In this document: piece by piece, positions 3,335 through 8,657 of the stretch
Numbering within the stretch: position 1 is the first letter of the stretch
How the letters are laid out: each line of letters opens with the position of its first letter
From: Sphingobacterium rhinopitheci
GTDB taxonomy: Bacteria; Bacteroidota; Bacteroidia; Sphingobacteriales; Sphingobacteriaceae
Assembly (NCBI RefSeq): GCF_022627575.1
Contig: NZ_JADEYQ010000001.1
Location: forward strand, 372,001 to 436,000
DNA length: 64,000 bases
Reading direction: 5' to 3'
The notes under the pieces: generated by a model
The model's input: the letters and a program-made list of their open reading frames with translations, nothing else
Databases searched by the model: none
What the model was told of the DNA's origin: nothing
Translations under genes and position numbers: made by a program

Positions 3335-5911
3335 TTATGCTAAATTTCTTCCTGCATTTACTACACCATATAGCGTTCTACTAATCAATTTTCTATAAAT
3401 CTGTTCTTGTTTTTCGTCTAGATTTTCTTTTTCTAGTGATCGTGTTGCGTACTGTTGAATAATTAATAGCGGTAGAACGATTTTTTCCCTTTGCAAGATT
3501 GATTCTCTTTCAACCGGATAATTCTCCATTAACACCGAAAAACCTGTCAACTTCTTTAGGTATTTTTTAGTCTTCTCAAACTCTTCATTCAAGTTCATCC
3601 AGAATTCACCGAATACAGCATCATCTTTCATATACGATGTAATATCAAAATTAGATTTTGTCATAGACATCATACAATTATCTAATAATGTATTAAAGAA
3701 GCCTGAATTTTGATATAAATTATGAACGTATGACCATAAGTTGTTTTCCTCTGCCCATTGCAAAGCTGTACCTACACCATAGAATCCTGGGATATTCTGT
3801 TTCAATTGGCTCCATGCTGTAACAAATGATATAGCGCGTAAATCTTCTAAACGAAGCTCTTTATCTGAATTACGTTTTACAGGACGACTACTGATATTGA
3901 TGGATGATAGGGACTTCAACGGGCTCAATGTTTCCAAATATTTAAGAAATTGCGGGTGATTACGCAAACTCATAAATTTATTATAGCTCACTAAAGCAAT
4001 ATCATTAATAATTTCCTTTTGTTTTTTTGTTAATGTATCACCTTCATTTTGCTTCAATTCGGAGATTAATCCGGCGTGTACCAGCTGTTCAATATTGTAT
4101 TGAGCAGTATCCAGAGAACCATATTGGCTACTGATTGTCTGTCCTTGTATTGTCAATTGAATATGCTTATTTTCAATATCTTTACCCATTGAAGCATAGA
4201 ATCGCTGTGTCTTACCTCCACCACGTGCTGGAGGGCCACCACGACCATCAAAAAATACTAAATCTACATCATATTCACGCGCCAAGGCTGTTAATTCAAT
4301 CTTAGCCTTATAAATAGACCAATTGGCCATCAAATAACCACCATCTTTGGTACTATCCGAAAAGCCTAACATAATCGTTTGCTTATTTCCTCTTTTCTTT
4401 AGATGACTAGCATAATTTGTATTTGTATATAATGTACGCATTACATCTGACGCTCTAGATAAATCATCTACCGTCTCAAACAATGGGACAAAATCAATAG
4501 TAAGATCCTCTTTCGTCCATCCTTGCCATAAAAACAATTGCATCAAAGCTAATATATCTGATGCTTGTTGGCAGTTAGAAATGATAAATCGCTGTGCTGC
4601 GCGCTCACTTCCTGAGGCTTGAATATTTTTTAGGTGGCGAATTACGCCAATTGTATCTTGAACCAAAGCTTCGGCATCTTCTTTACAATCGAGTGTAGCT
4701 TCAGTAAATTTTAGCGATGCTTGTTTATTCTCTTCAGATCCGTTTAAATCAGCAATATTGATTCTCGTTTCATCCGGATAATGTTTAGCCAAATAGGTTG
4801 TCGTTTCACGTAACACAGAACTATCTTGGCGGATATCTAATGTTGCAAAGAAGCAACCAAATGTTTTCACTTTATGTATTAAATCCTCTACCAACTCGAT
4901 GAATAAACCATTATGAAGATCATTCAAAACTGATTTAATAGCTTCAAGATTTGTCAAAATCTCCTCTGTATCATTCGTTGGGTTATCTATCGGATTAAAA
5001 CTATTTTCATAAAACAGATTTTGAAGATTATCCAAGTATTGCTCTGCCCCTCTGAAAGTAATTCTTCTTTTTACGATTCTAAAATCACGATAATAACAAC
5101 GGAAAAGTATCGTTCTAAGCATTGAAGCTACACGTTTAGTACTTTCAACAGTCACGTTAGGATTTCCATCTCTATCACCTCCTGGCCAAAAGCCTAATTC
5201 TACAAGTTGCTTCACTTCTTTACCATCAACATCCAATTCGCTATCTATTTTTGATTGAATACCAGAGGTAACTTTATAAAATACATTCTCCAAGTACCAA
5301 GCTAAGCTAATTGCTTCATCAACAGGTGTTGGCTTTTGCTTTTTAATAAATGGTGTTTTACCCAATTGTTGTAATAACAAATTGATATTAGAAATATCAT
5401 TTGCTTTAATAGCTTCAATCAAATCATTTATAATCCCTAATACAGGACCAGGATAAAACTGCGTAGGGTGTGCTGTTAGTACTAATCTTACAGAGAAATC
5501 CTTTAATTTTTCGACGATACGACCTTTTAATTTATCATCATTCCTTACTAAAGAGAACAATGCATCCAAACCAACACTTTCATCGGAACGACCCACCGCT
5601 TGAAATGCAGAATCTTCGATAGCATCAAATAAAACAACCTGTCTCTCGATATATTGTACGATTCTAAAAAGCAAATCTATACGATCTTCAGCAAGAACAT
5701 ATTGTTCGTATTGCCCAAAGAAACTATCAATAATAACCTCAGGTGAAAGATGCTTCTCTACCCCTTCTTCACAATGGGTCGTAAAGAAAGGTAATAATGT
5801 ACCAGTATGCTTAACACGCTGGAATGGCAGGGTTAAGAATAAACTTTTAAATAAATCAAAACGTGTTAAAACCTCTGATTCGAAAAGCGCCTGTTTCTGA
5901 CTTAATTTCAT
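3335..5911 (-). CDS. ppc: Phosphoenolpyruvate carboxylase
   Basis: The 858-residue enzyme fixes bicarbonate onto PEP to give oxaloacetate, refilling the TCA cycle. Signatures: LTAHPTQ with the catalytic His at 148, GFWPGGDRDGNP near 240-251, FATLDIRQDS near 355-364, and MLGFSDSTKDGGYLMANW near 514-531. The second glycine-rich loop reads FFDGRGGPPARGGG (residues 553-566), with Asp 555 where the E. coli enzyme has a conserved His in FHGRGG. The C-terminus is VVNAGRNLA, not the usual ending in RNTG. Both differences fit a divergent clade that I believe is usual in Bacteroidota. Length is close to the family norm. It is monocistronic; the upstream region is the mobile-element graveyard. Confidence 0.93.
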   Translation of the reverse strand: MKLSQKQALFESEVLTRFDLFKSLFLTLPFQRVKHTGTLLPFFTTHCEEGVEKHLSPEVIIDSFFGQYEQYVLAEDRIDLLFRIVQYIERQVVLFDAIEDSAFQAVGRSDESVGLDALFSLVRNDDKLKGRIVEKLKDFSVRLVLTAHPTQFYPGPVLGIINDLIEAIKANDISNINLLLQQLGKTPFIKKQKPTPVDEAISLAWYLENVFYKVTSGIQSKIDSELDVDGKEVKQLVELGFWPGGDRDGNPNVTVESTKRVASMLRTILFRCYYRDFRIVKRRITFRGAEQYLDNLQNLFYENSFNPIDNPTNDTEEILTNLEAIKSVLNDLHNGLFIELVEDLIHKVKTFGCFFATLDIRQDSSVLRETTTYLAKHYPDETRINIADLNGSEENKQASLKFTEATLDCKEDAEALVQDTIGVIRHLKNIQASGSERAAQRFIISNCQQASDILALMQLFLWQGWTKEDLTIDFVPLFETVDDLSRASDVMRTLYTNTNYASHLKKRGNKQTIMLGFSDSTKDGGYLMANWSIYKAKIELTALAREYDVDLVFFDGRGGPPARGGGKTQRFYASMGKDIENKHIQLTIQGQTISSQYGSLDTAQYNIEQLVHAGLISELKQNEGDTLTKKQKEIINDIALVSYNKFMSLRNHPQFLKYLETLSPLKSLSSINISSRPVKRNSDKELRLEDLRAISFVTAWSQLKQNIPGFYGVGTALQWAEENNLWSYVHNLYQNSGFFNTLLDNCMMSMTKSNFDITSYMKDDAVFGEFWMNLNEEFEKTKKYLKKLTGFSVLMENYPVERESILQREKIVLPLLIIQQYATRSLEKENLDEKQEQIYRKLISRTLYGVVNAGRNLA

Positions 5912-6120
5912 TAATAATGAATAATTAGTATCTGTAATTTGTTAAAACTCTTAACCAAATATACGACATTAATATAATTTAGTGTCTATTATTATCATTT
6001 TTATATTTTTAATATTATTTTTTTACAAATCGTACAAAAATAAACTATATAATTCTACATAACTACCATAATAACGAATTACATACCGTCTGTTAATCAA
6101 AATACCCTCAAAAGTATTGA
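5912..6120. other. AT-rich intergenic stretch, no gene seen
   Basis: This 209-base region upstream of ppc is very AT-rich with stops in all frames. It must hold the ppc promoter, but no clear TAnnTTTG box is visible. I see no RNA gene or hairpin. It merges on the right with the decayed relaxase. Confidence 0.5.
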
Positions 6121-6649
6121 TATGTTAAGCGTATTGATATTCAAAAAATAAGAGGAAGTGCCAATGGTATAGCCTACTTATTCGAGGATAAACAAGACCA
6201 ACGTAAAAAACGAGGTTATCAGCTTGATCAAAATAAGCTGATAAGGAAAGCTCCAAGTGAGCTTTTTTCGGAAATCAAACAATGGAATTAAGACAATCCG
6301 AAAGAATTAATTAATGAAGTATTTTTCCATGGTTTTAGCTCCTGCAGGTGATGACGGCTAGTAATTAACTAACAAGGAACTTCGTAAATTATCAAAAAAA
6401 ATTATTGCAAAAACATTGAATATTGACCCCAATAAATAGCCTTACTATATGCATGTTCATGATGATAAAGAAAACAAGCATGTGTATATATACTTACCTC
6501 GAACCGATTATAATGATAAGACTATAAATGATAAACATAGTATGTATAGAGCTATTAATTCAACTGATGAAATAGCAAAAAACAATCTAACCAGGGCAAA
6601 ATATGGTATATTTAGGCACATTTGGAATAAAATATGGTTCAGGTTTTGA
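6121..6649 (+). pseudogene. Decayed relaxase (mobilisation nuclease) remnant
   Basis: Read with frame changes, this stretch gives a broken relaxase. From 6121 the frame reads GSANGIAYLFEDKQDQRKK and then KAPSELFSEIKQWN up to a TAA at 6289. After a shift near 6328 it reads MVLAPAGDDG, TAG and TAA, LTNKELRKLSKKII, another TAG at 6439, then YYMHVHDDKENKHVYIYLPR, the HxD...H histidine region of the relaxase family, and NDKTINDKH. The order of blocks (substrate-side helix, APAGD..L, catalytic His region) matches mobilisation relaxases of PF03432 type. There are at least four in-frame stops and one frameshift, so it is dead. The open 66-codon segment at 6449-6649 is part of it, not a separate gene. 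Confidence 0.72.
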
Positions 6650-6664
6650 GCAAGAGAAAAAAAA

Positions 6665-6962
6665 TACCAAGCTGTAAATTGCACTAATTGTCCGTTAAAA
6701 AGAGCTTATCATCAAAGTACAGGAAATAGAATTATTCAAGTAAATGAAATCCTGAACCGACACAAAGAAATAGCACATGAACTGCTCAATAGCGAAGAAG
6801 GAATTGCTAAACGCAAAAAGTGATGTTGTGATGTGGAACGGGTCTTCGGAAACATAAAAAAAATCAAAAATTCCGCCGCTTTATGCTTCGCGGTAAAACC
6901 AAAGTGTCCATAGAATGGGGTTATTGGCAATAGCACCAAACATTAATAAGAAAGCGGTCTGA
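6665..6962 (+). pseudogene. Decayed IS1182-family transposase, C-terminal remnant
   Basis: The frame starting at 6665 reads YQAVNCTNCPLKRA, then GNRIIQVNEILNRHKEIA and LLNSEEGIAKRKK, a TGA, and CCDVERVFGNIKK. A one-base shift gives FRRFMLRGKTKVSIEWG, and another gives GLLAIAPNINKKAV before TGA at 6960. This order (Cys pair, GNR.I.VN, SEEG..R, DVE.VFGNIK, RFMLRG, GLLA) is the C-terminal DDE domain of IS1182 transposases. One in-frame stop and two frameshifts make it inactive. The N-terminal half and the element ends are missing, and it abuts the decayed relaxase. Confidence 0.85.
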
Positions 6963-7059
6963 AAAGACCATTTTCATACCTGTTTTTTCTAAATATTGAA
7001 AGGATGATCAACTTAAAGCTCACACAAGTAGCTATACGCTGACAGATTCATTTAAAACT

Positions 7060-7093
7060 AAAAAAGGCCGCCTCAATTATTTTGAGACAGCCT
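7060..7093 (-). terminator. guaB terminator
   Basis: On the minus strand a 12-bp stem with two G-U pairs (AGGCTGTCTCAA with TTGAGGCGGCCT) is followed by a run of T. It lies 24 bases beyond the guaB stop. Confidence 0.8.
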
Positions 7094-7116
7094 CTTATTT
7101 CCTAAAAAAGTATGAA

Positions 7117-8657
<1,541 letters not shown>

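Follow-up and report, generated by a model that had tools for sequence, protein, structure and literature searches.

A relaxase gene fragment joined to an IS1182-family remnant between ppc and guaB in Sphingobacterium rhinopitheci

Two coding remnants between ppc and guaB

The window analysed herein is a stretch of 64,000 nucleotides from the genome of Sphingobacterium rhinopitheci. Near its left end, a gap of 1,208 bp (5912-7116) lies between the start of one long open reading frame and the stop codon of another; we take these frames to be ppc and guaB, following the initial annotation and general knowledge. Within the gap, two unrelated coding remnants follow one after another, both on the plus strand. 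The features of the locus are listed below.

3335 to 5911, minus strand: ppc (phosphoenolpyruvate carboxylase), left neighbour, an open reading frame of 858 aa
6148 to 6324, plus strand: relaxase remnant, first frame, corresponding to residues 9-67 of the L117 relaxase with 58% identity (tblastn); one in-frame stop
6323 to 6601, plus strand: relaxase remnant, second frame, corresponding to residues 67-160 of the L117 relaxase with 62% identity; three in-frame stops, and the HxD...H motif with its last His as Tyr
6592 to 6611, plus strand: relaxase/IS join, a short GGGCAAAA attributable to either side by comparison with L117, L118 and the G011 IS copy
6612 to 7094, plus strand: decayed 3' end of an IS1182-family element (C-terminal part of the transposase and right end), identified by DNA identity, PF13751 and NF033551
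7062 to 7096, minus strand (that of guaB): terminator-like hairpin of the IS right end, 15 pairs followed by a T run
7117 to 8592, minus strand: guaB (IMP dehydrogenase), right neighbour, an open reading frame of 491 aa

The segment 6148-6601 represents a decayed relaxase gene of the MobA/VirD2 type (PF03432), of which the 5' part, about 60%, is left. Two intact relaxases of a congener, L117 and L118, were searched by tblastn against the 1,221 bases of 5900-7120, and both aligned in two successive frames, with identities of 58% and 62% for L117 (joint E 3e-47) and of 51% and 60% for L118 (joint E 6e-45). The initial annotation had read a relaxase across frames and stops at this place, and the alignments bear it out. 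The second-frame piece matched the Pfam Relaxase model (PF03432) with an E of 1.3e-7 and 32.3 bits, the curated cut-off being 24.6, and this match was found again in a six-frame search of the genome. Its match to the NCBIfam model Bacteroid_MobB was weak (2.1e-4, 20.4 bits; cut-off, 400), and the first-frame piece alone matched no relaxase model in Pfam or NCBIfam.

The relaxase reading shifts frame near 6323 and meets four in-frame stops: one at about 6290, a pair at about 6360 and one at 6438. The remnant stops after about residue 160, the C-terminal 100 residues or so being absent, and the single open frame of about 265 codons that a functional relaxase gene would have is not found. The HxD...HxH motif forms the metal site of relaxases. 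In the window this motif is incomplete: where intact relaxases have HVHDDTxNKHVHIY, the remnant reads HVHDDKENKHVYIY, with Tyr in place of the last His, so the HxD...H segment pointed out in the initial annotation is the motif region but lacks its final histidine in the alignment with intact relaxases. By its sequence, the remnant is non-functional as a relaxase. A sequencing error is unlikely to have broken the frame, given the four stops and the truncated IS. Agreement with L117 was 82-85% at second codon positions and 34-46% at third positions. Since third positions are far more divergent than second, most of the divergence from L117 predates the decay and comes from a time when the gene was under selection.

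The second remnant starts at 6612 or a few codons earlier (about 6594) and ends at 7094, 22 bp from the guaB stop codon. It is 82% identical at the DNA level, over 488 columns, to an IS1182-family copy in a congener (G011:C11), and 81% identical to a copy in G001. The pieces matched PF13751 (E 1.7e-11) and NF033551 (E 6.5e-10); the score against the latter, 38.5 bits, is far below the full-length cut-off of 270, as expected of a fragment. The transposase frame is broken, with two TGA counted. The 5' part of the transposase was not matched, and of the two inverted-repeat ends the right end alone was. Judged from these breaks, the transposase remnant is likewise non-functional. The identity of both fragments, relaxase and IS1182, is practically certain from the matches.

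The GGGCAAAA shared by the two sides at the join fits a deletion between short similar sequences, without proving one. An open reading frame at 6449-6649 runs across this join and is a chimaera of the two genes. A decayed relaxase had been proposed for the whole of 6121-6649; the relaxase itself stands, but the matched part is limited to 6148-6601 (tblastn), and the interval is not one gene, since 6612-6649, probably from about 6594, belongs to the IS1182 remnant. Similarly, the 66-codon fragment that automated callers were expected to report does exist as the frame at 6449-6649, but about its last quarter is IS.

Relatives of the fragments and of the gap

The second-frame relaxase piece had matches in 11 of the 93 genomes of the genus, its own counted. 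The best places, with 59% identity and uninterrupted frames, were both in one genome (G080, contigs C28 and C43), whose intact relaxases, L117 and L118, are 264 and 267 aa long. The contigs bearing them are 6,493 and 4,861 bp long, and their two ends are identical over 43 and 44 bases, respectively, which is typical of circular contigs. On the L117 contig, the relaxase is accompanied by genes for a Rep_3 initiator and a NikA-like protein. Given the identical ends and the plasmid gene set, these contigs are most likely small mobilisable plasmids. When the NikA-like proteins of L117 and L118 were compared with 5900-7120, the best E was 0.03, inside the IS part, and no accessory mobilisation gene was detected beside the remnant.

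More distant relatives were sought in plasmid records. The whole insert found no relatives there at the DNA level; at the protein level, the relaxase fragment matched 12 plasmid records with 26-34% identity. The L118 relaxase matched 85 plasmid records, all below 60% identity and 54 of them from Bacteroides, and among the 20 of the 85 that were listed identity was 26-36%. A scan of a contig database with the relaxase fragment gave 119 pattern matches, none of which was confirmed. Six other relaxase matches above the Pfam cut-off were present in the window's own genome; five of them lie in long open frames, and the sixth is short and interrupted. The same genome holds four further IS1182 matches, none above the family cut-off (e.g. 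C59:107119-107743, C59:19333-19605 and C5:59633-59920), and no complete IS1182 copy was detected in it. An intact close relative of the relaxase fragment or of the IS fragment was not found in this genome either, and the join therefore cannot be read against parent sequences.

The gap was then compared among congeners. The N-terminal 200 aa of ppc were matched in 91 of 93 genomes (own counted), and guaB was found in 91 of 93, with 85-95% identity in 90 of the 92 other congeners; these genome counts depend on the search thresholds applied. Besides the window, 13 of the 92 other congeners have ppc next to guaB on the same contig (tables read by eye), and contig breaks may hide a few more cases beyond the 13. 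All 13 relatives have a ppc-guaB gap of 400-683 bp, against 1,208 bp in the window, and neither the insert DNA nor the relaxase or IS1182 transposase protein matched any of these 13 gaps (blastn, tblastn). The earlier proposal that a mobilisable element once sat between ppc and guaB is thus upheld as regards foreign origin, by the 13 same-pair congeners without the insert and by the plasmid-like contigs of the closest intact relatives. A whole mobilisable element at this site is another matter: what is left is the 5' 60% or so of a single gene, with no accessory mobilisation gene detected, fused to an IS1182 remnant.

The gap contains thx in 11 of the 13 relatives; this small gene, about 40 codons long, encodes a ribosomal protein (TIGR04560 in two examples). 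G010 has just a decayed thx-like stretch (by eye), and G063 has none. In many members of the genus thx sits directly downstream of guaB. It was not found in the window's genome with PF17070 or TIGR04560. Across the genus, thx is present in 75 of 93 genomes and missing from 18 (own counted; 17 of the 92 others), several of which are single-contig assemblies. Because its absence is not rare, the loss of thx here need not be due to the insert. A scan with the N-terminus of the window's ppc led to named genomes, nine of the first ten being Sphingobacterium. At the first 12 loci so matched, neither guaB nor thx was found in up to 2.5 kb upstream of ppc; as a control, the same upstream test on the 13 gap loci recovered guaB in 13 of 13 and thx in 11 of 13. 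A literature search found nothing on thx.

The guaB terminator and the edges of the insert

The right end of the IS forms a stable hairpin. The fold of 7050-7116 has an energy of -24.3 kcal/mol (z -5.81), and none of 200 shuffled sequences was as stable. Ten of the 13 relatives have a hairpin of strict terminator-like form on the strand of guaB; counted from the first base of the guaB stop codon, it begins at 17-30 nt. In the case of the window, the IS1182 right end supplies the first hairpin of this kind, with its start at 23 nt. The IS end therefore occupies the usual place of the guaB terminator. In G034 and G063 the hairpin has an interrupted stem (by eye). In G022 (L111) the guaB hairpin that sister genomes possess is absent, apparently deleted between short repeats, which indicates that guaB can do without a terminator at this place. 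In the window the IS hairpin would now end guaB transcription, and it is the sole part of the insert that may still act.

The placement of IS1182 in the genus was assessed on 17 intact copies from five genomes (four in G037, three in G087, four in G060, two in G065 and four in G007), with boundaries set by comparison of copies within a genome. Taking open reading frames of at least 100 codons as genes, 16 of the 17 copies lie at most 60 bp from the stop codon of a gene pointing at the copy, as compared with 21% of intergenic positions at the same loci, and 12 of the 17 lie between convergent genes, as compared with 15% of intergenic positions. An inward terminator-like hairpin, that is, a hairpin followed by a T run, was found at all 34 ends of these copies and at 48 of 2,550 internal positions; the 34 ends represent a handful of distinct elements, copies within one genome being more than 99% alike. 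An intact relaxase beside IS1182 was not seen in any locus examined.

This placement just past stop codons, together with the hairpin ends, fits the terminator targeting described for IS1272 in PMC4923244. As reported there, IS1272, a member of the IS1182 family, and TnSha1 insert into hairpins, with five of seven sites confirmed as terminators and the target partly deleted. The same source cites a review according to which some IS1182 members target palindromes. IS1182 is also named in PMC9208149 among the families over-represented between convergent genes. Literature searches on IS1182 and its targeting returned the staphylococcal precedent and, among the titles listed, none on IS1182 targeting in Sphingobacterium, and a search on IS target specificity returned unrelated work alone.

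At the left edge, relaxase similarity in tblastn begins at 6148. The N-termini of six intact relatives, four named plasmid relaxases among them, approximate M(I/V)xKxKxxxGS, and the window reads VKRIDIQKIRGS, which does not fix the start of the remnant. Upstream of this, 5912-6045 resembles the gaps of the 13 relatives weakly, the best score being reached by 2 of 200 shuffles and seven others by more than 50. Against every one of the 13 gaps, no fewer than 48 of 200 shuffles equalled the score of 6046-6121. A hidden thx or a remnant of the relatives' spacer in this stretch was rejected on these scores, and the stretch did not resemble the L117 and L118 NikA-like proteins either.

A proposed history of the insert

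On balance, we favour the view that the insert combines pieces of two mobile elements, neither still functional, and was probably produced by entry of an IS at the guaB terminator, acquisition of plasmid DNA, a fusing deletion and decay. An IS1182 element would have entered the intrinsic terminator of guaB, a kind of target favoured by this family, and relaxase-bearing plasmid DNA may have come in with the element or recombined with it. A deletion, possibly a single one, would then have joined the front of the relaxase gene to the back of the transposase gene, after which both fragments would have undergone point decay; thx may have been lost along the way. The order of these events, the entry of plasmid DNA by means of the IS and the connection with thx loss are inferred. 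One stretch sits poorly with this history: 6046-6121 matches neither the relatives' gap nor the NikA-like proteins, which leaves the left boundary unexplained. That no examined locus has an intact relaxase beside IS1182, and that no further plasmid gene was detected next to the remnant, also speaks against it.

A broader form of this reading can be put forward tentatively. IS1182 of the genus might enter intrinsic terminators silently, bringing a replacement terminator at each end, and guaB might have kept such an end as its only terminator as the remainder of the element decays, with the relaxase piece perhaps carried as one unit.

Alternatively, a mobilisable plasmid or element could have integrated by its own means, IS1182 having entered into or beside the relaxase gene later, with joint decay of the two. 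A relaxase fragment brought with or beside an IS would look the same as one from an integrated mobilisable element, and the relaxase is the sole identified cargo; moreover, the five further relaxase matches that lie in long open frames elsewhere in the genome suggest that mobilisable elements are common in this lineage. The IS end, however, lies at the guaB terminator place, a preferred kind of target, and not inside relaxase DNA, and an accessory mobilisation remnant was not found in the NikA-like search of 5900-7120. The IS1182 remnant explains the position of the insert better than integration of a mobilisable element does, and we regard integration by the element's own means as unlikely.

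Separate arrival of the relaxase piece and the IS piece at an intergenic hotspot, followed by fusion through a deletion, is considerably less probable. It would agree with the few bases common to both sides at the join, which fit illegitimate deletion, and with the observation that no examined locus has a relaxase and IS1182 side by side. A hotspot is nevertheless not indicated by the 13 same-pair congeners, whose short gaps have no match to the insert.

One particular form of the favoured history, to which we give slightly less credit still, is that relaxase and IS moved as one unit, with a surrogate left end in the start of the relaxase gene, into the palindrome of the guaB terminator, of which AAATAA would remain as the left flank and TTATTT as the right. 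An imperfect inverted repeat, 6146-6164 / 7082-7100, with 79% identity over 19 nt, bounds the insert. When the 19-nt inward right end was searched in 5912-6611, its best match was at 6146-6164 (15 of 19), a score reached by 0 of 500 shuffles, and TnSha1 offers a precedent, since according to PMC4923244 it uses a surrogate IRL' beside fabI. This 19-nt query was, however, chosen after the repeat had been seen, and the 15-nt IS core alone matched at best 9 of 15, as did 471 of 500 shuffles. Given this weak core match, most of the 19-nt match consists of the flanking AAATAAGAGG, and on the core alone an IS1182 left-end-like stretch at 6146 is unconvincing. The N-terminus of the relaxase may also simply run on upstream of 6148.

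Finally, that the relaxase likeness arose by chance or belongs to an unrelated gene, for which the lack of a family match to the first-frame piece could be cited, is rejected as exceedingly improbable in view of the joint E in two adjoining frames (3e-47), the PF03432 score above the curated cut-off, the excess divergence at third codon positions over second and the relatives' gaps without relaxase or transposase match.

Collectively, the insert is an ordinary genomic fossil and nothing of a new kind. It records past traffic of plasmid and IS in a housekeeping region, and it illustrates that a small open reading frame reported by a gene caller (6449-6649) can span two unrelated dead genes. The replacement of the terminator at guaB is a small point of interest; if the hairpin truly terminates guaB, it would show, neatly and on a small scale, how a host can retain one working end of a dead IS. 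The many intact IS1182 copies in the genus are suited to testing terminator replacement.

Three known systems can be set beside this insert. With the PF03432 relaxases that small mobilisable plasmids of Bacteroidota carry, and that are intact in G080, it shares the nuclease domain and the HxD...H region, at 51-62% identity depending on the stretch, whereas the copy in the window is truncated, carries four stops and a frameshift, lacks the last His of the motif and has no accessory gene detected. With the IS1182-family insertion sequences of the genus (NF033551; copies in G011, G001, G037, G087, G060 and G007), it shares the C-terminal transposase sequence, the right-end hairpin and the place just past a stop codon, but unlike the copies in congeners it is without the 5' part and its transposase frame is broken. 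The third system is that of staphylococcal IS1272, TnSha1 and TnSha2, of which TnSha2 is, according to PMC4923244, a plasmid that bears mobilisation genes and integrates at IS1272 copies in the chromosome. Whereas these elements are largely intact and spread fabI, and the window holds a decayed remnant with no identified cargo beyond the relaxase piece, the two cases have in common the IS1182 family, entry at a terminator hairpin with loss of part of the target and, in TnSha2, mobilisation genes of a plasmid.
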